Origin: Chloroflexota bacterium
GTDB taxonomy: Bacteria > Chloroflexota > Dehalococcoidia > UBA2979
Assembly: GCA_027592645.1 (NCBI GenBank)
Contig: JAQCKI010000013.1
Coordinates: 1 to 32,479 of the forward strand
Length of the DNA: 32,479 nt
Reading direction: 5' to 3'
Position numbers and translations under genes: made by a program. Below, piece after piece: positions 4,581-15,943 of the stretch; position 1 is the stretch's first letter, and each line of letters opens with the position of its first letter. The notes under the pieces are model-generated. The model searched no databases. It saw only the letters and a list, made by a program, of their open reading frames with translations, and was not told the DNA's origin.

Positions 4581-5897
4581 GTGTCCACCTTCCACATCTG
4601 GACGCTCGGTTGCCAGATGAACCAGGCCGATTCGCTCAAACTCGCCGCCGGCATGGAGCGGCTGGGCTATCGCGCCGTGGACGAGGACACGGACGCGGAC
4701 GTCGTGGTGATCAACACGTGCTCCGTGCGGCAACACGCCGAGGATCGCGCGTACTCCCGCCTCGGCGTGCTGAACAAGCGCCGCACGCAGGGCGCGCAGC
4801 AGAAGATCGTGGTGATGGGCTGCATGGTCGGCCCGAAGACGGACGAGCTCCGCAAGCGCTTCCCCTACGTGGACGTGTGGGCACGGCCCCAGCAGTTCGA
4901 TGGCATCCTGGGGATGGCCGCGGACGCACGCGACGTGTCCGAGGGCGAACTCGGCGTGCTGATCCAGGGCGGGATGCGCAACACGTACGGCCTGCCGTCC
5001 GGCCCCACCGCTTACGTCCCCGTCATCCACGGTTGCGACAAGTTCTGCACATACTGCATCGTGCCGCTGCGCCGCGGGCGCGAGGAGTCGCGGCCGGCCG
5101 CGGACATCCTCGACGAGGTGCGCTTCCTCGCCGCCCACGGCGTGCGCGAGGTGACCCTGCTCGGCCAGACCGTGGAGGCGTATGGCCACGATCTGCCCGA
5201 CCGCCCCGACCTGGCGACGCTGTTCGAGGGCATCGATACGATCGATGGCATCGCGCGGGTGCGCTTCCTGACGTCCTACCCGAAGGACATGACCGACCGC
5301 ATCATCGACGCTGTGGCGGACCAGCCGAAGGTGTGCGAGTACTTCAACATCCCGGTGCAGTCCGGCTCGGAATCGATGCTGGCGCGGATGCGGCGCGGCT
5401 ATACGGTCGCGGACTTCGAGGATCGCGTCGCGCGGATCCGCTCGCGGATGCCGGACGCGGCGATCGTCACAGACGTGATCGTCGGATGTCCCGGGGAGAC
5501 CGAAGCAGAGTTCCAGGACACGATTGACCTGCTCCGTCGCATCCAGTTCGATACCGTCCACGTTGCGGCGTACTCCCCGCGCCCGGGCACCTTCGCCTCG
5601 CGCAACCTGCCGGACGATGTGCCGCTGGAGGTGAAGAAGGAGCGCCTGCAGGTGGTGGAGACGATCCACCGCGAGTCCTCCGACCGCATCAACCAGGCGC
5701 TGCTCGGCCGCACTGTGCAGGTGCTGGTGGAGCGCGAGGAAGTAGGCCGCGCGAGCGGCCGCACCCGTCGTGGACAGATCGTCCACTTCGATGGCACGGG
5801 CAACCTCGGCGGGATCGTCGATGTCACGATCTCGCAGGTGACGGCGTGGTCGCTTCAGGGACACCTGGCCGGCGACCTCGCGCTGTCCGTCCTCTAA
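4581..5897 (+). CDS. miaB: tRNA-2-methylthio-N6-dimethylallyladenosine synthase MiaB
   Basis: This is a radical-SAM methylthiotransferase that adds a methylthio group to i6A37 of tRNAs reading UNN codons. The 438-residue protein opens with the MiaB signature TLGCQMNQADS. The auxiliary cluster cysteines are C11, C47 and C81, and the radical-SAM motif is C152-DKF-C156-TY-C159. A C-terminal TRAM domain covers about residues 370-435 (LLGRTVQVLVE and following). GCQMN favours MiaB over RimO or MtaB. The GTG at 4581 is chosen because AGGGAG (4568-4573) lies 7 bases upstream and because any earlier start would fall in the tRNA gene. It sits 41 bases after tRNA-Ser(GCT), which itself is not a MiaB-type (UNN) tRNA. 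Confidence 0.95.
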   Translation: MSTFHIWTLGCQMNQADSLKLAAGMERLGYRAVDEDTDADVVVINTCSVRQHAEDRAYSRLGVLNKRRTQGAQQKIVVMGCMVGPKTDELRKRFPYVDVWARPQQFDGILGMAADARDVSEGELGVLIQGGMRNTYGLPSGPTAYVPVIHGCDKFCTYCIVPLRRGREESRPAADILDEVRFLAAHGVREVTLLGQTVEAYGHDLPDRPDLATLFEGIDTIDGIARVRFLTSYPKDMTDRIIDAVADQPKVCEYFNIPVQSGSESMLARMRRGYTVADFEDRVARIRSRMPDAAIVTDVIVGCPGETEAEFQDTIDLLRRIQFDTVHVAAYSPRPGTFASRNLPDDVPLEVKKERLQVVETIHRESSDRINQALLGRTVQVLVEREEVGRASGRTRRGQIVHFDGTGNLGGIVDVTISQVTAWSLQGHLAGDLALSVL

Positions 5898-5925
5898 CCG
5901 TCCGACCGAGAACAGCGCACGCGGC

Positions 5926-5931
5926 TACCCT
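5926..5931 (+). promoter_or_regulatory. Possible -10 element for a leaderless Nudix-gene transcript
   Basis: TACCCT lies 7 bases before the ATG at 5939, where no Shine-Dalgarno sequence is present. This spacing would place the transcription start at or next to the ATG. Only a weak -35 (CCGACC region near 5902) is visible, so confidence is low. Confidence 0.25.
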
Positions 5932-5938
5932 CGATCCC

Positions 5939-6604
5939 ATGACCAACAGCACCGGCCCGCGCAACCCGGATGCCGCGCCTGTCGTGGCGACGATCCTCGT
6001 GATCTTCGGGATCGTTGCGGGGCGCCTCCAGGTCCTGCTCGTCCACCGCTCCGCGGAACCGGAACGCGACCGCTGGGCGCTGCCGGGCGGGCGCTGGCGG
6101 GGCGACGAGTCGCTGGAGGGTGCCGCCCACCGCAACCTGGTGCGTGAGACGGGTGTCTCCGATCTCTACCTGGAGCAGTTGTTCACCACCTCCGGCCTGG
6201 ACCCACAGCACCCCTCGGTCGCCGTCGCCTACTTCGCGCTGGTCGAGGAGAGCAAGGTGCGCCTGCGCGAGGAGGAGGCCTGGCTGCCGGCGTGGCACCC
6301 GGTGGACGACCTCCCGGCGCTCGCCTTCGACAACAACCGCGTGATCGAGCAGGCCGTCCGCCGCGTAGGCGCGAAGCTGGACTACACCAACATCGCGTAC
6401 GGGCTCCTGCCCGAGGAGTTCACGCTGCGCCAACTCCAGACGGCGTACGAGGCGGTGCTCCGCGAACCCCTCGACCGCCGGAACTTCCGCAAGCGCATGA
6501 TCTCCACCGGCCTGATCGAGGCCGCGGGCGGCTCCCGCCGCGAAGGCGCGCACCGCCCGGCGACCCTCTACCGCTTCGTGAGCCGGGAGCCAGTCTTCCT
6601 GTAA
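5939..6604 (+). CDS. nrtR: NrtR-like Nudix-domain transcriptional regulator of NAD metabolism
   Basis: This 221-residue protein has an N-terminal Nudix domain (about 12-145) and a C-terminal winged-helix domain (about 155-218, LPEEFTLRQLQTAYEAVL, then PLDRRNFRKRM and RPATLYRF). This architecture is that of NrtR, a Nudix-derived repressor of NAD genes that senses ADP-ribose. The Nudix box runs from G51 to V73 but reads R65-N-L-V-R-E70 where an active enzyme has RExxEE. Two catalytic glutamates are replaced (N66, R69), which argues for ligand sensing rather than hydrolysis. The nad operon starts 3 kb downstream. The ATG at 5939 has no Shine-Dalgarno. The alternative is an ADP-ribose pyrophosphatase-like enzyme, made less likely by the box and the winged helix. 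The regulatory target is inferred. Confidence 0.8.
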   Translation: MTNSTGPRNPDAAPVVATILVIFGIVAGRLQVLLVHRSAEPERDRWALPGGRWRGDESLEGAAHRNLVRETGVSDLYLEQLFTTSGLDPQHPSVAVAYFALVEESKVRLREEEAWLPAWHPVDDLPALAFDNNRVIEQAVRRVGAKLDYTNIAYGLLPEEFTLRQLQTAYEAVLREPLDRRNFRKRMISTGLIEAAGGSRREGAHRPATLYRFVSREPVFL

Positions 6605-6668: not shown

Positions 6669-6929
6669 ATGGGTGCCAGTACCTCGAACCGGATCACCAT
6701 CGACCCCCAGGGACGCATCGTCATCCCGGCGGAGGTCCGCAAAGCGCGCGGCTGGAAGCCGGGCGACCGGATGGTTGTGGTGGAGATAGACGGCCTGCTC
6801 ACGATTCTGACGGCTGAAGAGGCCGGTCGCCGCGCCCAGGAGATCGTGATGCGCTACGTCCCGGCCGGTGTCAGCCTCGTAGACGAACTCCTCAAAGAGC
6901 GGCGCGAAGCGGCGGCACGGGGCGACTAG
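6669..6929 (+). CDS. AbrB/MazE/SpoVT-family antitoxin
   Basis: This is an 86-residue swapped-hairpin DNA-binding protein. The N-terminal domain (about 7-52) carries the family pattern ITIDPQGRIVIPAEVRKARGWKPGD followed by a beta-rich stretch. The C-terminal tail (about 53-86) is charged and helical and probably wraps the toxin. The downstream PIN-domain gene overlaps the stop by 1 base (TAGTG), the usual arrangement of a VapB/VapC pair. CGGAG at 6659-6663 serves as ribosome binding site. Function is assigned by family and by the toxin partner. Confidence 0.85.
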   Translation: MGASTSNRITIDPQGRIVIPAEVRKARGWKPGDRMVVVEIDGLLTILTAEEAGRRAQEIVMRYVPAGVSLVDELLKERREAAARGD

Positions 6930-7309
6930 TGCCCGCGTTCGTCCTGGATTCGTCCGCTGTCATCGCCTACCTGCATCGCGAGCCAGGATGGGAGGTAGCC
7001 GAGGAGTATGTCTTCGGTGACAGCGTAGTCAGCGCGGTCAATCTCGCGGAGATCATCACGAAACTACTCGCGCGCGGCACATCGGAAGCAGACATCCGTG
7101 TGGCCTTCGCCTTCGTGACGCTGACATCAACCGCCCTCACCGATGAGATTGCGTTCGAGGCCGGTCGGATCCACGCGGCGACGAGGCACCTCGGGTTGTC
7201 GATGGCGGACGCGGCCTGCGTGGCCACGGCGCGGGCGCTCGGAGCGACCGCGGTCACGGCCGACCGCACGTGGGCGGACCTGCCCGACGAGGTGCGGATC
7301 ATCCGCTAG
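6929..7309 (+). CDS. vapC: PIN-domain ribonuclease toxin, VapC family
   Basis: This 126-residue PIN-domain protein is expected to be a Mg2+-dependent ribonuclease inhibited by the preceding antitoxin. The four acidic positions of the active site are visible: D7 (VLDSSA), E41 (NLAEI), D94 (SMADAAC) and D112 (TADRTW). None is lost, so the toxin looks intact. The GTG start overlaps the antitoxin stop, coupling translation so that antitoxin is made first. VapC toxins typically cleave tRNA or rRNA; the target here cannot be predicted. Confidence 0.88.
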   Translation: MPAFVLDSSAVIAYLHREPGWEVAEEYVFGDSVVSAVNLAEIITKLLARGTSEADIRVAFAFVTLTSTALTDEIAFEAGRIHAATRHLGLSMADAACVATARALGATAVTADRTWADLPDEVRIIR

Positions 7310-7318: not shown

Positions 7319-8248
7319 ATGCCCCACGACCTCACGTTTGGTGTCCTGCCCGGCGGTAGCAGCCCGGCCGAGTTCCTTGCCGCCGCCCAGACGGCGGAGG
7401 CGCTCGGCTACGACTCCGTCTGGGTGGGCGACCACGTCCTCTGGCCGTCCTTCTGGCCATCTCCCCTCACGATGCTGGCCGCGGCGAGCGCGGTGACGGA
7501 GCGGGTGGGCCTCGGGACGGGCGTACTGCTCGCGGCGCTCCGCCGGCCGGCTGCGCTCGCCAAGGAGACCGCCACCCTGCAGTGGATGTCCGGCGGGCGC
7601 TTCCGCCTCGGTGTCGGGGCGGGGGGCGAGTACCCGAAGGAGTTCGAGGCCTCCGGGGTGCCGCTGGCAGAGCGCGGGCGCTACCTCGACGACACGCTCG
7701 AGGCGCTGACCGCGCTCTGGTCCGGGGAGCCCGCCTCCCTGCACAACCGTCAGATCGATGTCGACGATGCCACGCTCGACCTCGTGCCGGAGCCGCGCAT
7801 CCCCGTGTGGGTGGGTGGGCGCGCCCCGGCGGCGCAGCGTCGTGCCGCACAGTATGGCGACGCGTGGATGCCGTTCGTGATCACACCCGAGCGATTCGCC
7901 GAGGGCTGGGCGAACGTGCGCACCCGCGCCGAGGCGCTGGGACGCGACCCGGACGCGCTTGTGCCGGCGTTGCAGTTGTGGGGCCAGTTCGATGACGATC
8001 TCGCCGAGGCGCTCCCGACGATTGCCGCGCGGATCGAGGCGACGTACCGCGTCCCCTTCGATCGCTTCGAGCGGTACACGGTGTATGGCGATGCGGAGAT
8101 GTGGGCGGCACGCCTCGGTGAGTTCATGGACGCTGGCGTGCGGCACTTCAACTTCGTCTTCGCCGGCGGGGACCGATTGATGCAACTGACGCGGGTCGCG
8201 ACCGATGTGATCCCGCGACTCCAGGCGATCGACAGGGGAGGCGCATGA
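7319..8248 (+). CDS. LLM-class (luciferase-like, probably F420-dependent) oxidoreductase
   Basis: This is a 309-residue TIM-barrel protein of the bacterial luciferase superfamily. The typical pattern is visible: AQTAEALGYDSVWVGDHVLWP near the N-terminus, then RVGLGTGVLL, LDDTLEALTALWSGE and PRIPVWVGGRAPAAQRRAAQYGDAW. The subgroup resembles F420-dependent reductases more than FMN luciferases, but the cofactor and substrate are not defined by the sequence. It starts 9 bases after vapC and its stop overlaps the next gene by ATGA, so it is co-translated with the MFS transporter. A substrate shared by enzyme and transporter is plausible but unproven. Confidence 0.85.
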   Translation: MPHDLTFGVLPGGSSPAEFLAAAQTAEALGYDSVWVGDHVLWPSFWPSPLTMLAAASAVTERVGLGTGVLLAALRRPAALAKETATLQWMSGGRFRLGVGAGGEYPKEFEASGVPLAERGRYLDDTLEALTALWSGEPASLHNRQIDVDDATLDLVPEPRIPVWVGGRAPAAQRRAAQYGDAWMPFVITPERFAEGWANVRTRAEALGRDPDALVPALQLWGQFDDDLAEALPTIAARIEATYRVPFDRFERYTVYGDAEMWAARLGEFMDAGVRHFNFVFAGGDRLMQLTRVATDVIPRLQAIDRGGA

Positions 8249-9568
8249 CCCATACCGGTTCGACCACTCGACCGTTGGGAATGCGGATTCTGCCCAGGCG
8301 CTACTACTACGGATGGAACATCGCCGTCGCCGCTGCCGTGATGGGGATGGTGACCGCGGGCGTCGGCTACTACGGCCTGGCGGTCTTCTTGAAGCCACTG
8401 CAGGAGGAGCACGGCTGGTCCAATGCCGCCGTGTCCGGCGCCACCTCGATCTACTTCGTGATGACGGGCGTCTGGACGGCCTTCATTGGTCCTCAGATCA
8501 ACAAGTACGGCCCGAAGCGATTCCAGCTGATCGGCTTCACCTTGATCGGCCTGACGGCCGCATCAGTGCGGCTACGTCACCGCCCTCTGGCAGCTGTACG
8601 CGGTCTACATCACGCTGGCGCTCGGTTCCGGATTCGCCTCCGGCGTGGCGATCAACGCGATCATGTCGCGCTGGTTCGTGCGACGTCGAGCGCGCGCGAT
8701 GAGCGTCTCTTCCACGGGGGTCTCGTGGGGTGGCGTGATCCTCGCGCCGCTGGGCGCCGTCCTCGTGGAGCGCGGCGGCCTGGCACTGGCGACGCCGGTG
8801 CTCGGCGCGCTGGTGCTGATCGTGACGCTGCCGATCGTGCTCGGCGTGCTGGTCTTCGACCCGCGCAACGTGGGGCTGTTGCCCGATGGCGACAAGACCG
8901 AGGAGGAGGCGCGCGCGAAGACGCCGCAGAACTCCGCGCTCGGCGAGGCGACTCAGCGGCGGCGGTGGACGCTGAAGCAGGCGATGTCCACGCTGCCGTT
9001 CTGGGCGATCATCATCGCCTTCTCGCTGGTGCTCATGGCGCAGACCGGCTTCGTGATCCACCAGATCGCATTCCTGGAGGAACGCCTCGGCTCGCAGAGC
9101 GCGGCGGCGCGGGCGCTCTCGATCACGGCGCTCGGCAGCATCGTTGCGCGCCTGGCCATGGGCATGGTGGCGGACCAGATGGACAAGTGCTGGCTGACGG
9201 CCGGCGTGTTCGTGGTGCAGGCGGTCGCGGTGCTGCTCGTGCTGCGCGTCGAGGGCGCGTGGTCCACGTCCTTCTTCATCCTGCTGTTCGGGATGACCAT
9301 CGGGAACGTCTACATGCTGCAGTCGCTGCTGGTGAGCGAGATCTACGGCGTGGTCTCGTTTGGCGCCGTCTTCGGGATCATCAGCATGAGCGGGCAGATG
9401 GCGTCCGATTTCGGGCCGTTCGTCATCGGACTGTTGGATGACCGCACGGGCTCATACACGACGTCGTTCACGATCACCGCGACCGCCACACTGATCGCCG
9501 CCGTGGTGGTGCTGCTCGCGCGGCCGCTTCCACCGCCCCCACTGACCGAGGAGACCGCGAGCGCCTGA
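8245..9568 (+). pseudogene. MFS transporter interrupted by a frameshift
   Basis: The coding signal of a 12-helix major facilitator protein starts at ATG 8245 (RBS AGGGGAGG at 8235-8242, overlapping the previous stop by 4 bases). It reads normally to about 8564 (FTLIGLTAAS). It then continues one base later (CGYVTALWQLYAVYITLALG and onward) to the stop at 9566-9568. The crossover lies between the out-of-frame TGA at 8552-8554 and about 8570. One extra base near 8564-8566 explains it. Removing it would give an ordinary protein of about 440 residues, resembling the oxalate/formate-antiporter-like MFS group. Read literally, the first frame ends at 9441 as a nonsense tail. A sequencing error is as likely as a real mutation because the rest of the gene is well preserved. 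Confidence 0.82.
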
Positions 9569-9574
9569 CGTGCG

Positions 9575-9603
9575 TTGACACCCCCGGGGGGTAAGCGTAA
9601 GGT
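9575..9603 (+). promoter_or_regulatory. Promoter of the nad operon
   Basis: A perfect -35 TTGACA (9575-9580) is followed after 17 bases by TAAGGT (9598-9603). The predicted start is near 9610, inside or just before the palindrome at 9615-9639. The spacer contains the GC palindrome ACCCCC-G-GGGGGT (9580-9592), a possible second operator. Confidence 0.6.
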
Positions 9604-9614
9604 GAACACGAACC

Positions 9615-9639
9615 AGTTTGCGTAACAAGTACGCAAACT
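9615..9639 (+). promoter_or_regulatory. Perfect palindromic operator upstream of nadA
   Basis: AGTTTGCGTA (9615-9624) and its exact reverse complement TACGCAAACT (9630-9639) are separated by 5 bases. The site begins 11 bases after the proposed -10 and so covers the expected transcription start, a classical repressor position. The AT-rich arms stand out in GC-rich surroundings. A dimeric winged-helix repressor such as the NrtR-like protein encoded at 5939-6604 is the obvious candidate; no second copy was noticed in the window. Confidence 0.65.
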
Positions 9640-9697
9640 CACTTGCCCCGCACCGGCCCCCATTGACCGGCGCGGGCACCGACCGCCGAGGTGGCAC

Positions 9698-10915
9698 ATG
9701 GCACCGACCAATCCCATCACCCTCACCGCCGAGCGCTACCCGATCGCGCAACTCCAGTGCGAGACGGACACGGGGATCGAGACGATCCCGCTCAGCCAGG
9801 AAGTCGCCTTCGGCTCATGGCAGCCGGACATTCCGGCCGCGTACATGGATCTGGGTTCGGACGAACTGACGCGCCGCATCCACGCCGCCCGCGCGACGCT
9901 GGGCGACCGCGTCGTGATCCTCGGCCACCACTACCAGCGCGAGGACATCATCGCCTTCGCGGACGAACGCGGGGACTCCTTCCAACTGGCGCAGTACGCC
10001 GCGAACCGGGGTGAGTCGGAGTACATCGTGTTCTGTGGCGTGCACTTCATGGCGGAGGCGGCGGACGTGCTCCGCGCTCCGCACCAGCAGGTGATCCTGC
10101 CGAACATGGCCGCCGGCTGCTCGATGGCGGACATGGCCTCCGAGCCGGATGTGCATCGCGCCTGGGCCGAACTCAAGGAGTTCTACGGCTCCACGGATGA
10201 CATCATCCCCGTCACGTACATGAACTCCGCGGCCAGCCTGAAGGCGTTCTGTGGCGCCAACGGGGGCGTCGTCTGCACCTCCTCCAACGCGACGAAGGTG
10301 CTGGACTGGGCGTTCGAGCGCGGCAAGCGCGTCTTCTTCTTCCCTGACCAGCACCTGGGCCGCAACACCGGCCACGCCATGGGCATCACGCTGGACGAAA
10401 TGGTGCTGTGGAACTGGCGCACGCCCGCCGGCAACCTGGGCGGCGCCACTCCGGAGGCGCTGGAGCGCGCTCGCGTCATCCTCTGGCAGGGCCACTGCTC
10501 CGTGCACCAGCGGTTCACCGTCCAGCAGATCGAGCAGGCCCGTGTGGCCAACCCGGACGTGAAGATCGTCGTCCACCCGGAGTGCCGGTACGACGTGGTG
10601 CAGGCGGCGGACGCCAACGGCTCCACCGGCTACATCGTGAAGTACATCCAGGACGCCCCGGCTGGCTCCGTGATCGGCGTGGGCACCGAGATCAACCTGG
10701 TCTCCCGCCTGGCGAAGGAGCACCCGGACAAGACGATCTTCTGCCTGGACCCGGTGGTCTGCCCGTGCAGCACCATGTACCGCGTCCACCCGGCCTACCT
10801 GGCCTGGGTGATGGAGGAACTCGTCGCCGGTCGCGTCGTGAACCGCCTCGAAGTCCCCGAGCACCACCGCCGCGACGCCAAGGTCGCGCTCGATCGGATG
10901 CTTGCGCTGAAGTAG
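9698..10915 (+). CDS. nadA: Quinolinate synthase NadA
   Basis: NadA condenses iminoaspartate with dihydroxyacetone phosphate to quinolinate using a [4Fe-4S] cluster in de novo NAD synthesis. The 405-residue protein is the longer form of the family. Conserved stretches include ILGHHYQREDI (about 74-84), FCGVHFMAE with C113, VVCTSSNA with C193, FFPDQHLGRNTG, HPECRYDV and DPVVCPCSTMYR with C355. C113, C193 and C355 are the likely cluster ligands. GAGGTGG (9688-9694) lies just before the ATG. First gene of the nad operon, behind a strong promoter with an operator-like palindrome. Confidence 0.95.
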   Translation: MAPTNPITLTAERYPIAQLQCETDTGIETIPLSQEVAFGSWQPDIPAAYMDLGSDELTRRIHAARATLGDRVVILGHHYQREDIIAFADERGDSFQLAQYAANRGESEYIVFCGVHFMAEAADVLRAPHQQVILPNMAAGCSMADMASEPDVHRAWAELKEFYGSTDDIIPVTYMNSAASLKAFCGANGGVVCTSSNATKVLDWAFERGKRVFFFPDQHLGRNTGHAMGITLDEMVLWNWRTPAGNLGGATPEALERARVILWQGHCSVHQRFTVQQIEQARVANPDVKIVVHPECRYDVVQAADANGSTGYIVKYIQDAPAGSVIGVGTEINLVSRLAKEHPDKTIFCLDPVVCPCSTMYRVHPAYLAWVMEELVAGRVVNRLEVPEHHRRDAKVALDRMLALK

Positions 10916-10961: not shown

Positions 10962-11420
10962 ATGCCTGAGTTCCGCTTCGAGGGGCGCTATCCCCTCCGT
11001 CACACGGACGCCTTCGGTGGGACCCCGTTCGTCCACGGTGGCGTGCTTCTCGCGCTCACCGAGATCGCGCTCGACGCCTACGACCGTGAGGCCGGCGTTC
11101 CGAGCCACCGCGAGGTGCTGCGCTTCCAGGCATCGTCCGAGGTGCGCTACCTGTCGCCGCTGCGCTGGGACGACGCCGCCATCGTACGGCTGCGCTGCGC
11201 CGAGGTGCGCCCGGGCCGCCTGCGCTTCGAGTGCGAAGTGGCCGCCGCGAGCGACGGGCGCGCAGTCGCGCGATTCACGCACCGCTATGTCTACGTGAAC
11301 GCCCAGAATGGACGCCCCGAGACCCCCGCCGACTGGCAGGCGATCGTGCGCGCGATCCGCTCGTTCGAGCCGGCTGTCGAGGTGCTCGACGAGGACGCCG
11401 CTCGGGCCCAGCGACCGTGA
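10962..11420 (+). CDS. Hotdog-fold acyl-CoA thioesterase-like protein
   Basis: This 152-residue protein of the 4HBT/YbgC-like hotdog superfamily has its core at about residues 5-125. The long helix pattern TPFVHGGVLLALTEIALDAYD is preceded by LRHTDAFG, matching the usual D-containing loop. The strands VLRFQASSEVRYLSPLRW and FTHRYVYVN follow. Thioester hydrolysis of an acyl-CoA is the family activity, but the substrate is unknown. GAGGA (10951-10955) precedes the ATG by 6 bases. It lies between nadA (46-base gap) and nadB (4-base overlap), so it is expressed as part of the NAD operon, although no thioesterase belongs to the known pathway. Confidence 0.8.
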   Translation: MPEFRFEGRYPLRHTDAFGGTPFVHGGVLLALTEIALDAYDREAGVPSHREVLRFQASSEVRYLSPLRWDDAAIVRLRCAEVRPGRLRFECEVAAASDGRAVARFTHRYVYVNAQNGRPETPADWQAIVRAIRSFEPAVEVLDEDAARAQRP

Positions 11421-12982
11421 CGAGCCGTGCCGATTACGACCTGATCGTGGTGGGGTCTGGCATCGCCGGGCTATATGCGGCGATCCAGGCGAAGGAGGAG
11501 GGCGCGCGCGTCCTTGTCGTCACCAAGGCCGGCATCGGCGAAGCGAGCACCCGGTACGCCCAGGGCGGCATCGCCGCCGCCGTGGGCGAGGGCGACTCGC
11601 CCGAGGAACACCTGCAGGACACGCTGGAGGCCGGCGCCGGCCTCGTTGACGAAGAGGCGGCACGCATCCTGGTGTACGAGGCCGCCGACCGGATCGCCGA
11701 CCTCGTGCGGTACGGGGTGCAGTTCGACTCCTCGAACGGCGAGGTGTCACTTGGGCGGGAGGCGGCGCACTCGCGCTCGCGCATCCTGCACGCCCGAGGC
11801 GATGCGACCGGGCTGGAGATCGAGCTCTCGCTCTCATCGCTCGCGCAGCGCGAGGTGGTGATCCTCGAACACACGCTCGCGGACCGGCTGCTGGTCGAAG
11901 GCGGGCGCATCGCGGGGGTGGAGGTGTTCACGCGCACCACCGGCGAGCACCGCATCTACACGGCGGGCACGGTGGTGCTCGCCACCGGCGGCGCCGGCCA
12001 GATGTACCGCACCACCACGAATCCGCTGATCTCCACCGGCGACGGCGTCGCAATCGCCTACGAGGCAGGCGCCGAGGTGCTGGACATGGAGTTCACGCAA
12101 TTCCACCCGACGGCGCTGGTGATCCCGGGCCAGCCGGTCTTCCTGATCTCCGAGGCGGTCCGGGGCGAAGGCGCCCTCCTATTCAACACCCGCGGCGAAC
12201 GCTTCATGACGAAGTACGACCCCACTCGTGCCGAACTGGCGCCGCGCGACGTGGTCGCTCGCGCCGCGGTGCGCGAGATGGCGGAGACGGGCGCAGCGCA
12301 CGTGCTGCTGGACATCACCGACCGCGACGACGCATGGCTGGCGGCACGCTTCCCGCAGATCTACGCGAAGTGCCTGGAGGCCGGCCTGGACATGGCGCGC
12401 GACCGCGTGCCCGTCTCGCCCGCCGCGCATTACACGATGGGTGGCGTCCGCACGAACACCTGGGGCGAGACCACCCTCCCCGGCCTCTTCGTGGTCGGCG
12501 AGGCGGCCTGTACCGGCGTGCACGGTGCCAACCGGCTGGCGAGCAACTCACTGCTGGAGACCGTGGTTTTCGCTCACCGCGCCGTGGAGCGCCTGCTGCA
12601 CCCGCCCAGCCCGGTGCCACCACCGCCCGAGCCCGCCACCAACGCCATCGACCTCGCCCCGCTGGATCCGGACGGGCACGTCCCCACGGCGGCGGAAGTG
12701 AAGGAACTGATGTGGCAGGACGTGGGCATCGTGCGCAGCGGTGAGAGCCTGCAGCGCGCATCCTCCACGCTCCGCCGCTGGGCCGCCTCGATCCCGCGAC
12801 CGGCCGACCGCGATGGGTACGAGTTGCGCTCGATCGTCACGTGCGCTCGACTGGCCTCGGAGGCTGCGCTGCTTCGCGAGGAGTCGCGCGGCGCGCACTA
12901 CCGCACCGACTTCCCCGAGCCGCTCGATGACTGGCGGCGGCACATCGTGTTCCGCAAGGACGCCGCAGGAGGCACCGCATGA
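11417..12982 (+). CDS. nadB: L-aspartate oxidase NadB
   Basis: This FAD enzyme oxidises L-aspartate to iminoaspartate, the substrate of NadA. The 521-residue protein starts with the dinucleotide fold YDLIVVGSGIAGLYAA. It contains the flavoprotein segments STRYAQGGIAAAVG, VVLATGGAGQMY and EFTQFHPTAL. It ends the catalytic part with HYTMGGVRTNTWGETTLPGLF and GEAACTGVHGANRLASNSLLE; the C-terminal helical domain follows. The length is usual for NadB, and the pattern together with the nad context excludes succinate dehydrogenase. The GTG at 11417 overlaps the thioesterase stop; an upstream extension of the frame would run inside that gene. Confidence 0.95.
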   Translation: MTSRADYDLIVVGSGIAGLYAAIQAKEEGARVLVVTKAGIGEASTRYAQGGIAAAVGEGDSPEEHLQDTLEAGAGLVDEEAARILVYEAADRIADLVRYGVQFDSSNGEVSLGREAAHSRSRILHARGDATGLEIELSLSSLAQREVVILEHTLADRLLVEGGRIAGVEVFTRTTGEHRIYTAGTVVLATGGAGQMYRTTTNPLISTGDGVAIAYEAGAEVLDMEFTQFHPTALVIPGQPVFLISEAVRGEGALLFNTRGERFMTKYDPTRAELAPRDVVARAAVREMAETGAAHVLLDITDRDDAWLAARFPQIYAKCLEAGLDMARDRVPVSPAAHYTMGGVRTNTWGETTLPGLFVVGEAACTGVHGANRLASNSLLETVVFAHRAVERLLHPPSPVPPPPEPATNAIDLAPLDPDGHVPTAAEVKELMWQDVGIVRSGESLQRASSTLRRWAASIPRPADRDGYELRSIVTCARLASEAALLREESRGAHYRTDFPEPLDDWRRHIVFRKDAAGGTA

Positions 12983-13869
12983 CCGACCCGACCACCCACC
13001 ATCCCGCCACGGAGACGGTCGCGGAGATCGTCGCGCTGGCGCTCGCCGAAGACCGTGTGGCGTTCGACGTGACCACGCGCGCGACCGTGCCGGCCGATCA
13101 GCCGGGCGAGGCGACGCTGCTCTACAAGCAGTCGGGCGTGGTGTGCGGCCTGGTGGTGTTCGCGGAGGCGTTCGCGCAGGTCTCCCCGGACGTGGAGGTG
13201 GAACTGCTGGTCGATGAGGGCCAGTGGGTGAAGGCGGGCACCACCGCCGCGGAGATCAGCGGGCCGCTGGCCGCCATCCTCTCCGCCGAGCGCGTGGCGT
13301 TGAACCTGCTACAGCGGATGTCGGGCATCGCCACGCTGACGCAGGAATACGTCGACAAGGCGAATGACGGTGGCGAGGCGCGCGTGGTGGACACGCGCAA
13401 GACCACGCCCGGCCTGCGCGCGCTCGAGCGCTACGCGGTGCGCATCGGCGGAGCGCACAACCATCGCAACACGCTGGAGGACGGCGTCCTGATCAAAGAC
13501 AACCACCTGGCCGCCGCCGCCGCGCGCGGGGTGGACATCGCCGCCCTCATCGCGGAGGTGCGCGAACGTGTGCCTCATACGCTGCGGATCGAGGTCGAGG
13601 TCACGTCCGAGGAGATGGCGCGCGACGCGCTCCGCGGCGGCGCGGACGTGGTGATGCTGGACAACATGCCACCCGACGCGATGGCGGCCGTGGTCTCCGA
13701 GACACGATCCAACCCCGCCTACGCACGCGTGCTGTTCGAGGCTTCCGGTGGGATCACGCTGGACACGATCAAGCAGGTCTCCGCGACCGGCGTCGACCTG
13801 ATCTCGTGCGGCGCGCTGACGCACTCGGCGCCGGCGCTGGACATCTCGCTGGATGTGCGGCCCGCATGA
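12979..13869 (+). CDS. nadC: Nicotinate-nucleotide pyrophosphorylase (quinolinate phosphoribosyltransferase) NadC
   Basis: NadC converts quinolinate and PRPP to nicotinate mononucleotide and CO2, completing the shared de novo route. The 296-residue length is standard. Recognisable segments are LALAEDRVAFDVTTRATVP, ERVALNLLQRMSGIAT, RVVDTRKTTPGLRALERYAV, GGAHNHRNTLEDGVLIKDNH and the C-terminal FEASGGITLDTI and GVDLISCGALTHS. These contain the Arg/Lys/His residues that bind quinolinate and PRPP. It overlaps nadB by ATGA and the kinase gene by ATGA. Confidence 0.95.
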   Translation: MTDPTTHHPATETVAEIVALALAEDRVAFDVTTRATVPADQPGEATLLYKQSGVVCGLVVFAEAFAQVSPDVEVELLVDEGQWVKAGTTAAEISGPLAAILSAERVALNLLQRMSGIATLTQEYVDKANDGGEARVVDTRKTTPGLRALERYAVRIGGAHNHRNTLEDGVLIKDNHLAAAAARGVDIAALIAEVRERVPHTLRIEVEVTSEEMARDALRGGADVVMLDNMPPDAMAAVVSETRSNPAYARVLFEASGGITLDTIKQVSATGVDLISCGALTHSAPALDISLDVRPA

Positions 13870-14408
13870 ACCAGGTGATCCTGCTCTCTGGCCCTCCCGG
13901 CTCAGGGAAGTCATCGGTCGCGGAGGCGCTCTGCGAGCGCTTCGACCGGATGATCCACATCGAAGTGGACGACCTGCGCCACTGGGTGAAGGCGGGCTAC
14001 CGCCGCCCGTGGGACGGCGATCAGCAAGCAGCGGAGCAAATCGAACTCGCCGCCCGCAACGCCTCGGCGATCGCACGCGAGAGCATCGCCATGCGCTACG
14101 CGGTCGTGATCACGGACGTGGTGCTGGGCGCGGCCATCGAGCACTATCGGGCCGCGTTGCAGGACATCGGCGTACCGGTGCACCTCGTCACATTGCTACC
14201 GGGCATCGAGGAGACGCAGCGACGCGACGCTCTGCGCGACCACTCGATCCCCGAGCGGGCGCGCGAAGTGCACGAGGAGATTGCGGCCGCGATCCGCGCC
14301 GGCACCATGCCCGGTGCCATCCTCGACACTACCGGGGATGCGGACGCCTGGGTCACCGGCGACCGCGTGCAGGACGTGGTCTCGCGGGGCCTCGCCGTCT
14401 TCATCTAA
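13866..14408 (+). CDS. Small P-loop kinase (AAA_33-like) coupled to nadC
   Basis: This 180-residue P-loop NTPase has a Walker A motif, GPPGSGKSS, at residues 9-17. It resembles small-molecule kinases of the adenylylsulfate/chloramphenicol phosphotransferase type. A candidate substrate-binding acidic pair occurs in HIEVDDLRHW. An Arg-rich lid-like segment TQRRDALRDHSIPERAREVHEEI lies near residues 120-142. The ATG shares ATGA with the nadC stop, so it belongs to the NAD operon. A role in phosphorylating a pyridine nucleoside (as nicotinamide riboside kinases do) is possible, but no specific signature supports it. The downstream repeat and terminator end the operon. Confidence 0.78.
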   Translation: MNQVILLSGPPGSGKSSVAEALCERFDRMIHIEVDDLRHWVKAGYRRPWDGDQQAAEQIELAARNASAIARESIAMRYAVVITDVVLGAAIEHYRAALQDIGVPVHLVTLLPGIEETQRRDALRDHSIPERAREVHEEIAAAIRAGTMPGAILDTTGDADAWVTGDRVQDVVSRGLAVFI

Positions 14409-14413
14409 CCTTG

Positions 14414-14581
14414 TGTTCCGTTCGCACTGAGCCTGTCGAAGTGCCGCCTCAATCCAATCACGATCCGATGAGCCGCCGGCCCGGGCGGAGGCCGCCCGAG
14501 TGCAGACGCCGCGAGGCCTCATCGCGAGGCGGTCGGACGGCGGGGGCGGTTCGACAGGCTCACCGCGAGCGGAACGGAACA
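14414..14581. repeat. Intergenic inverted-repeat element with GAGCCTGTCGAA ends
   Basis: The left arm (14414-14448) contains TGTTCCGTTC and TGAGCCTGTCGAA. The right arm (14545-14581) is its inverted copy, with TTCGACAGGCTCA and GAACGGAACA and a four-base length difference. About 100 bases of GC-rich sequence lie between. The GAGCCTGTCGAA core is a widespread intergenic repeat in many bacterial genomes. No open frame or transposase is present, so it is a REP/MITE-like element in the gap after the nad operon. Confidence 0.65.
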
Positions 14582-14596
14582 GGCCATGAGAGCGAT

Positions 14597-14620
14597 GAGG
14601 CCGCCCGTGGGGGCGGCCTC
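14597..14620 (+). terminator. Terminator hairpin between convergent operons
   Basis: There is a perfect 10-base-pair stem, GAGGCCGCCC (14597-14606) with GGGCGGCCTC (14611-14620), and a GTGG loop. It is followed on the plus strand by a modestly T-rich GTTGGTGTCGTCT. It sits between the end of the nad operon and the end of the minus-strand citrate synthase gene and could serve both. Confidence 0.7.
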
Positions 14621-14644
14621 GTTGGTGTCGTCTGACGGGTGCGC

Positions 14645-15793
14645 CTAGCGCTTCGCGAGCGGGACGAACGGGCGATCCGGTGCGCCGGTGTAGACCTGCG
14701 CGGGCCGGAAGAGGCGGTTCCCGGAGTCCCACTGCTCACGCATGTTCACCATCCACCCTGCCATGCGGGAGGCGGCGAATGCGGGCATAAAGAAGTCGAT
14801 CGGGACGCCGATGGCGAAGACGCAGCCGGAGAACAGGTCCACGTTCGGGAAGAGACCGCGGTCGCCGAGGCGGTCCGTGGCAACCTTCTCCACCGTAAGC
14901 GCGATCTGGTAGAGGTCGTGCTCCTTCGTGCCGGCCTTGACGACCTCGGCGGCGAGTACCTGGATCACCTTCGAGCGCGGGTCCTTGACGTGGTACACGC
15001 GGTGACCGAAGCCCGGGATCTTGTACTTGTCGTCCAGCAGCCGCTCCACCTTCGCCTCGGCACCACCGGGGTCGCCGATGTCCAGGAACAGGCGCAGCGA
15101 GTGCTCGTTGGCGCCGCCGTGGGCGGGCCCGGAGAGCGCGCCGATGGCGGCGGAGGCTACCGCCTCCGGCTCAGCCTTCGTCGAGGTCACCACGCGGGTG
15201 GTGAAGGTGGAGGCGTTCCCGGCGGAGTGGTCCGCCTGCAGGATCAGCAGCGCCTGCATCACGCGCAGGTGCTCCGGCGACGGCGTCTTGCCGGTGATCA
15301 TGCGGAGCATCATCTCCGCGTGCGACTCGCCCGGCTTCGGCCCGGTGTACGGACGGCCGGCCGCCGCCTCCGCAATCACGCCCACGAGGTGGCCAGTCTT
15401 CGCAATCAGCGAGATGCCACGCTTGGTGGCGGTCTCCACTTTCAGTTCGAAGTTATTATCCCGCGGCCCTAGCGCAGCCACGGCTGCCTGCAGAGCGAAC
15501 ATCGGGTGGGTGAGGGTGGCGGCGCTGCGGGCGAACTGAACCTGCTCGGGCGTCAGTGCGCGCTCGGTCTCCAGTTCGCGGGTGATCTCCTGCACACGGG
15601 CGGCGTTCGGCAGTTCGCCGTCGTAGAGCAGCGCCACGATCTCTTCGAAGGTCACACCCGGCTGGGTCAACTCCTCGATCGAGTATCCGCGGTAGGTCAG
15701 CCGGCCGGCCTGGCCGTTGACCAATGAGAGCGCGGATTCAGCAATGGGAACGCCTTCCAGGCCGGGTACCAGCTTGGGGGTGTCCGTCGTCAT
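14645..15793 (-). CDS. gltA: Citrate synthase
   Basis: This enzyme condenses oxaloacetate and acetyl-CoA to citrate. The 382-residue protein matches the short (type I-like) citrate synthases. Catalytic residues are visible: H225 (GPAHGGANE), H264 (GFGHRVY) and D319 (PNVDLFSG), with the conserved ADHS near residue 188 and the RAQ-type tail. The chosen ATG at 15793 begins MTTDTPKLVPG. An in-frame ATG 45 bases upstream adds residues unlike the family. 2-Methylcitrate synthases share this fold, so a dual function cannot be excluded. It faces the nad operon across the terminator at 14597-14620. The 185-base gap upstream contains a short palindrome. Confidence 0.93.
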   Translation of the reverse strand: MTTDTPKLVPGLEGVPIAESALSLVNGQAGRLTYRGYSIEELTQPGVTFEEIVALLYDGELPNAARVQEITRELETERALTPEQVQFARSAATLTHPMFALQAAVAALGPRDNNFELKVETATKRGISLIAKTGHLVGVIAEAAAGRPYTGPKPGESHAEMMLRMITGKTPSPEHLRVMQALLILQADHSAGNASTFTTRVVTSTKAEPEAVASAAIGALSGPAHGGANEHSLRLFLDIGDPGGAEAKVERLLDDKYKIPGFGHRVYHVKDPRSKVIQVLAAEVVKAGTKEHDLYQIALTVEKVATDRLGDRGLFPNVDLFSGCVFAIGVPIDFFMPAFAASRMAGWMVNMREQWDSGNRLFRPAQVYTGAPDRPFVPLAKR

Positions 15794-15943
15794 CGTTTCG
15801 TCCCATCTTGTGCTCCACGGCATCTGGCATACAGCCACCCCGTGGACCCCTCGGGGTCATCGACGAATTCGGCCCGGCTGCGGCCACCGCGGAAGGCGGG
15901 GGAGCCGGTGTGGGCCAAGGCCTCGGGAAGCATAGCATCCTCG

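Follow-up and report, generated by a model that had tools for sequence, protein, structure and literature searches.

A conserved operator at the nadA promoter of a Dehalococcoidia bacterium, with a weaker tandem copy over the -10 box and NrtR as its probable repressor

The window, meaning the whole stretch of 32,479 nucleotides that was analysed, corresponds to contig 65 of a genome assembled in 157 contigs (2.15 Mb). Among named genomes, the closest relatives are MAGs that carry the labels Chloroflexi or Dehalococcoid(es/ia). The window includes a set of genes for NAD synthesis placed behind a promoter and a palindromic operator, as well as a regulator gene, nrtR, encoded 3 kb upstream of the main operator (Table 1). 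Judging from the sequence, nadA, a 4HBT thioesterase-like gene, nadB, nadC and a P-loop kinase-like ORF plausibly form a five-gene operon, the kinase-like ORF being a possible last gene. The homology of nadB begins near residue 63, and its true start is thus probably near 11414. The ORFs 13853-14635 and 14639-15472 were considered as the fourth and fifth genes and rejected, as they are without family match; the Pfam-matching frames there are the kinase-like one (13806-14408) and, on the minus strand, a citrate synthase (14645-15838). Several members of the family have a homologue of the 4HBT thioesterase-like gene in the same place, between nadA and nadB.

Table 1. Features of the nad locus and of the nadE locus, with positions in the window unless another locus is named
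Feature	Position	Strand	Remarks
nrtR	5939..6604	+	NUDIX and NrtR winged-helix domain, 221 aa, probable repressor
-35 box TTGACA	9575..9580	+	TTGAC/TTGAT in 35/35 family promoters
Second, weaker operator copy GTAAGCGTAAGGTGAACACGAAC	9591..9613	.	starts 25 bp upstream of the main core, contains the -10 box
-10 box TAAGGT	9598..9603	+	ends 12 bp before the main operator core
Main operator	9615..9639	.	palindrome 10+5+10, conserved core 9616-9638
nadA, quinolinate synthase	9698..10915	+	first gene behind the operator
4HBT thioesterase-like gene	10962..11420	+	between nadA and nadB
nadB, L-aspartate oxidase	11231..12982	+	mechanical ORF
nadC, quinolinate phosphoribosyltransferase	12979..13869	+	its end overlapped by the kinase-like ORF
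P-loop kinase-like ORF (AAA_33)	13806..14408	+	uncertain start; overlap with the 3' end of nadC
nadE (true frame)	L003:12216-13943

Two further elements lie between nrtR and the nad genes. A candidate toxin-antitoxin pair is made up of an AbrB-like ORF at about 6669-6930 and a PIN-like one at 6929-7309, both named by eye, and the PIN-like ORF has no match in NCBIfam. Before the nad promoter, an MFS transporter gene (8245-9568) is split over two frames, with the change located in its first third. Its orthologue in the related genome G002 is open throughout, and the window copy is thus either frameshifted or affected by an assembly indel.

The main operator is an exact inverted repeat, AGTTTGCGTA-ACAAG-TACGCAAACT, and both of its 10-nucleotide arms are perfect, as the original prediction had described them around a five-nucleotide centre at 9615-9639. 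The conserved unit is of 23 bp (9616-9638), GTTTGCGTA-N5-TACGCAAAC, with a family consensus of about STTWGYGTAY-NNN-RTACRCWAAS. No further match to the palindrome with up to three mismatches occurs in the window, and none of 100 dinucleotide shuffles contained any palindrome match at that threshold. With a score of 32.6, the main operator is also the best site of the window for a motif matrix derived from the family nadA sites; because of this origin, the matrix is put to an independent test only at the nadE sites and outside the family.

A TTGACA-N17-TAAGGT promoter had likewise been proposed ahead of the palindrome, and it was found at 9575-9603 as the only match with no more than one mismatch in the window, where 0.03 would be expected. 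Its register is fixed in all 35 readable nadA promoters of the family, in which TTGA.. and TAnnnT are separated by a spacer of 17-18 and the gap between the -10 box and the operator is 11-13 bp. As a control, the upstream DNA was shuffled and a wider gap of 9-16 bp allowed, and a -35/-10 pair then arose in 16 of 7000 trials. Relative to the nadA start predicted from this promoter, the operator would span about +5 to +29.

NadA was found in 37 of the 44 genomes of the family, from which 35 nadA promoters were readable, the two further ones being truncated by contig ends. The 23-bp palindrome stands upstream of nadA in every one of the 35, representing 16 genera, so that the check proposed for the palindrome, namely its conservation upstream of nadA in close relatives, came out in its favour. 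When the 44 genomes were scanned with a degenerate pattern at one mismatch at most, 70 sites were obtained against 18 for the reversed pattern used as a control, and 66 of the 70 were assigned to nadA or nadE. Two sites (G004:C63 and G013:C1, scores 12.8 and 16.6) lie within ORFs and were taken as chance occurrences. The palindrome is a conserved operator and a genuine regulatory site.

Besides the nadA site, the whole genome includes one further site only at up to three mismatches to the 23-bp core, and this site (CTTTGCGTATCTAGTACGCTAAC), absent from the original prediction, lies ahead of nadE on contig 102. It starts 64 bp before the ATG of a gene whose product is a 575-aa glutamine-dependent NAD synthase. 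As NadA, NadB and NadC carry out the first steps of NAD synthesis and NadE the last one, the operator is present at the beginning and at the end of the pathway. Within the family, the site precedes the glutamine-dependent nadE in 31 of 37 readable cases (23/28 plus a further 8/9), a count from which the copies cut at contig ends in G021 and G042 were left out; the six promoters without a site are those of G035, G003, G004, G028, G016 and G030.

The regulon also varies between members of the family. In genus g5 (G006 and G020, both small AT-rich genomes), the operator is found ahead of a gene that is presumably, from its sequence, the glutamate synthase large subunit (L172:1844-1866 and L354). 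These two sites score 39.2 and 28.5, whereas the other 28 homologues examined do not exceed 4.6. The NAD synthase match in the same genomes is only short and is without a site. In G015, an additional site is found directly upstream of the thioesterase-like gene ahead of nadB.

The second, weaker operator copy of the window, which had not been described in the original prediction, is the runner-up in motif score, with 11.4 versus 32.6 for the main site and 5.4 for the next best. In 22 of the 35 family promoters, one of the offsets -24, -25 and -26 holds a copy with a positive score, whereas at the other offsets tested a positive score was obtained at 1 of 1225 positions. In the survey of the family nadA promoters, the main site is the most downstream one with up to six mismatches, except in G043, where the best-scoring one was used; in some genomes, such as G017, the upstream copy is a closer match than the downstream one. 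Outside the family, a further copy was found in the range of -48 to -54 in 12 of 39 promoters, and the remaining offsets within -110 to -23 gave none (score above 3 with a class matrix in both cases). The right arm of this out-of-family copy usually overlaps the -35 TTGACA. These two distributions indicate that the two lineage sets pair their operators differently, a candidate second copy being merged in each set with one of the core promoter elements.

The nrtR ORF covers 5846-6604, with a start probably at 5939. Its product exceeds the cut-offs of both PF00293 and PF21906 in a profile search, whereas it reaches 147 bits against NF050029, under the curated cut-off of 400. The best PDB match is AraR of Bacteroides thetaiotaomicron (5bs6, E 3e-35), and the NrtR structures 3gz5/3gz6 of Shewanella oneidensis are matched with E 4e-23, both nearly over the full length. 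What had been called an NrtR-like protein is thus a full-length NrtR made of a NUDIX and a winged-helix domain. NrtR was found in 40 of the 44 family genomes, and of the 35 that have both nrtR and nadA, 28 hold the two genes on a single contig. In G017 and G042, the nadA site is present and no NrtR match was obtained, these two genomes being incomplete (86% and 70%).

In the available excerpts of PMC4666351, the Nudix catalytic consensus is given as GX5EX7REUXEEXGU. The corresponding motif of NrtR reads G-x5-E-x7-RNLVRETGV, in which only one Glu out of the three in REUXEE is retained, as expected for an impaired motif. This is in line with a Nudix domain that would bind a ligand rather than act as a catalyst; the second Glu pair is retained (RKLVEETG) in many NrtR proteins of the family. 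No positive motif score was found in up to 300 bp upstream of nrtR among the family and out-of-family regions examined, and autoregulation of nrtR of the mycobacterial type was rejected for want of an operator at this place.

The relationship between operator and regulator was followed in a class sample of 197 genomes, of which 70 have an NrtR winged helix and 167 a NadA match. An initial pattern search at three mismatches was too loose for use at this level. The NrtR-positive set consists of the nadA upstream regions of 39 of the 56 out-of-family NrtR genomes, and the NrtR-negative set of 18 of the 19 out-of-family genomes that lack NrtR and whose NadA match is close (E below 1e-100). A related palindrome, with a consensus of about gTTAGTGTannnnntACACTAAc, stands upstream of nadA in all 39 genomes of the former set (38 scores of at least 10.0 and one of 6.1), whereas a comparable one was found in 0 of the 18 genomes of the latter, whose best score is 7.0, so that the lowest positive score falls just below the highest negative one. 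Thus, the site is tied to NrtR and not to nadA itself. Together with its presence in all 35 family promoters, this co-occurrence with NrtR supports the earlier reading of the palindrome as an operator. Beyond the class, a named-genome set was considered with 80 nadA loci, 37 of them with an NrtR match; no strong family-matrix score was found in the 400 bp before nadA in other phyla, that is, beyond the Chloroflexota loci. In NrtR genomes of other phyla, the operators may be located before nrtR instead.

From these comparisons, the protein acting on the operator is very probably the NrtR encoded nearby. The symmetry of an operator names no protein by itself, and a match to the NadQ structure 7q91 was also obtained for the C-terminal part of NrtR, so that another NAD regulator (NiaR, NadQ or NadR) or an unrelated repressor might be considered. 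Such an assignment is unlikely, as the motif tracks NrtR across the class, nrtR so often shares a contig with nadA, and the NUDIX and NrtR_WHD protein is the sole PF21906 match of the 2.15-Mb genome. That the palindrome would be a chance structure without function is hardly worth considering in view of the shuffles and of its retention in 16 genera and at a second locus, nadE.

Alternatively, the inverted repeat could act at the RNA level, forming a hairpin in the 5' leader that serves as riboswitch, attenuator or mRNA stabiliser. Indeed, a 10-bp hairpin folds at the predicted mRNA start (z -2.5). This role is very improbable because the RNA pairs are broken across relatives: among the 35 family nadA sites, positions 6/18 read C.A in 9, positions 4/20 are mismatched in 8 and positions 1/23 in 12, and the nadE sites likewise vary arm by arm. 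The element retained across sites is the half-site GYGTA, and arms varying independently point to an element that works as DNA and not as an RNA hairpin. Moreover, the -10 box lies within the second copy, which would thus fall mostly outside the transcript, and an Rfam search of 9400-9800 with E values up to 1 gave no match. An RNA leader or riboswitch was rejected on the grounds that pairing is not kept and that no Rfam family is matched.

Binding and repression of the nad operon operator by the nearby NrtR, with the tandem copy and nadE included, is the explanation that is regarded as highly probable as a whole. Beyond the observed site, promoter, tandem copy, conservation, regulon and NrtR co-occurrence, we infer binding, repression, a ligand and cooperation of the two copies. 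An NrtR dimer on the main operator, just behind the -10 box, would block nadA, the thioesterase-like gene, nadB, nadC and the kinase-like ORF. At a higher level of NrtR, a second dimer would occupy the weaker copy 25 bp upstream, and, as this copy contains the -10 box, RNA polymerase and the repressor would compete directly. NrtR would also repress nadE through the single site on another contig. Upon NAD shortage or breakdown, a ligand of the Nudix domain, which would be ADP-ribose or NAD as in characterised relatives, would alter the DNA binding of NrtR and NAD synthesis would resume.

The type of regulator is known, and the unusual feature is the doubled site partly built into the promoter. 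A wider reading, for which the chances seem about even, is that NrtR control in the Dehalococcoidia relies on paired operators, the weaker copy being merged with a core promoter element, and that glutamate synthase was recruited in one genus. If so, two dimers per promoter could provide a graded or sharper response to NAD, and the glutamate synthase operator of genus g5 would couple the NAD level to nitrogen assimilation. The tandem layout, repeated yet differently placed, would point to selection for an arrangement in which repressor and RNA polymerase compete directly. As it covers the -10 box in this family and the -35 box in others, it would constitute a natural experiment on the sharing of bases between operator and promoter. 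The nadA operon and nadE also offer a testable NAD regulon with defined regulator, operator and promoter in a mostly uncultured class.

The NrtR family was reportedly defined in 2008 by Rodionov et al. through comparative genomics, as a Nudix-related regulator with palindromes before NAD genes. According to the excerpts available of PMC6800001, the NrtR box of Mycobacterium smegmatis is a 23-bp element, GTTTTCGA-N7-TCGAAAAC, located before nadA-nadB-nadC, and ADP-ribose releases MsNrtR. Compared with what these excerpts describe, both systems have an NrtR encoded beside nadABC and a 23-bp palindrome, and six of the eight outermost positions in each arm agree (GTTTGCGT here versus GTTTTCGA). 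MsNrtR represses its own gene (PMC6800001, same excerpts), whereas no site precedes nrtR here; the inner arm GTA...TAC, the tandem copy over the -10 box and the inclusion of nadE on another contig are further differences from the mycobacterial system as described there.

The NUDIX and winged-helix architecture is common to the present NrtR and to SoNrtR of S. oneidensis (3gz5/3gz6), with a nearly full-length sequence match. In the parts available of PMC4666351, SoNrtR was solved with a 27-bp DNA, and NrtR motifs are referred to as highly variable between groups. AraR of B. thetaiotaomicron (5bs6) belongs to the same NrtR family and has the same domain order, and it governs arabinose genes and answers L-arabinose (PMC4666351, in part), whereas the sites described here precede NAD genes. 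Release by ADP-ribose is reported for the NrtR of Streptococcus sobrinus in the available text of PMC12735969 and for those of S. oneidensis and Synechocystis in that of PMC4666351, in which NdnR of Corynebacterium glutamicum is said to respond to NAD. For paired NrtR sites, a phrase search returned only PMC6800001, with a single occurrence of 'two NrtR', and no description of the present layout was found. Among the papers listed in literature searches for NrtR in Chloroflexi or Dehalococcoidia, none was recognised as a description of this regulon; a Chloroflexi collection exists in RegPrecise.

In the putative DNA-reading region of NrtR, all the family proteins shown have DRRNFR, whereas all the out-of-family ones shown have DKRNFR. 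This difference accompanies the change in the operator core. Genus g8 keeps the TTAGTGT core together with DRRNFR, and the link between residue and core is thus not strict. The operator of a single regulator drifts between families, with TTAGTGT versus TTTGCGT cores, beside the protein that would read it.
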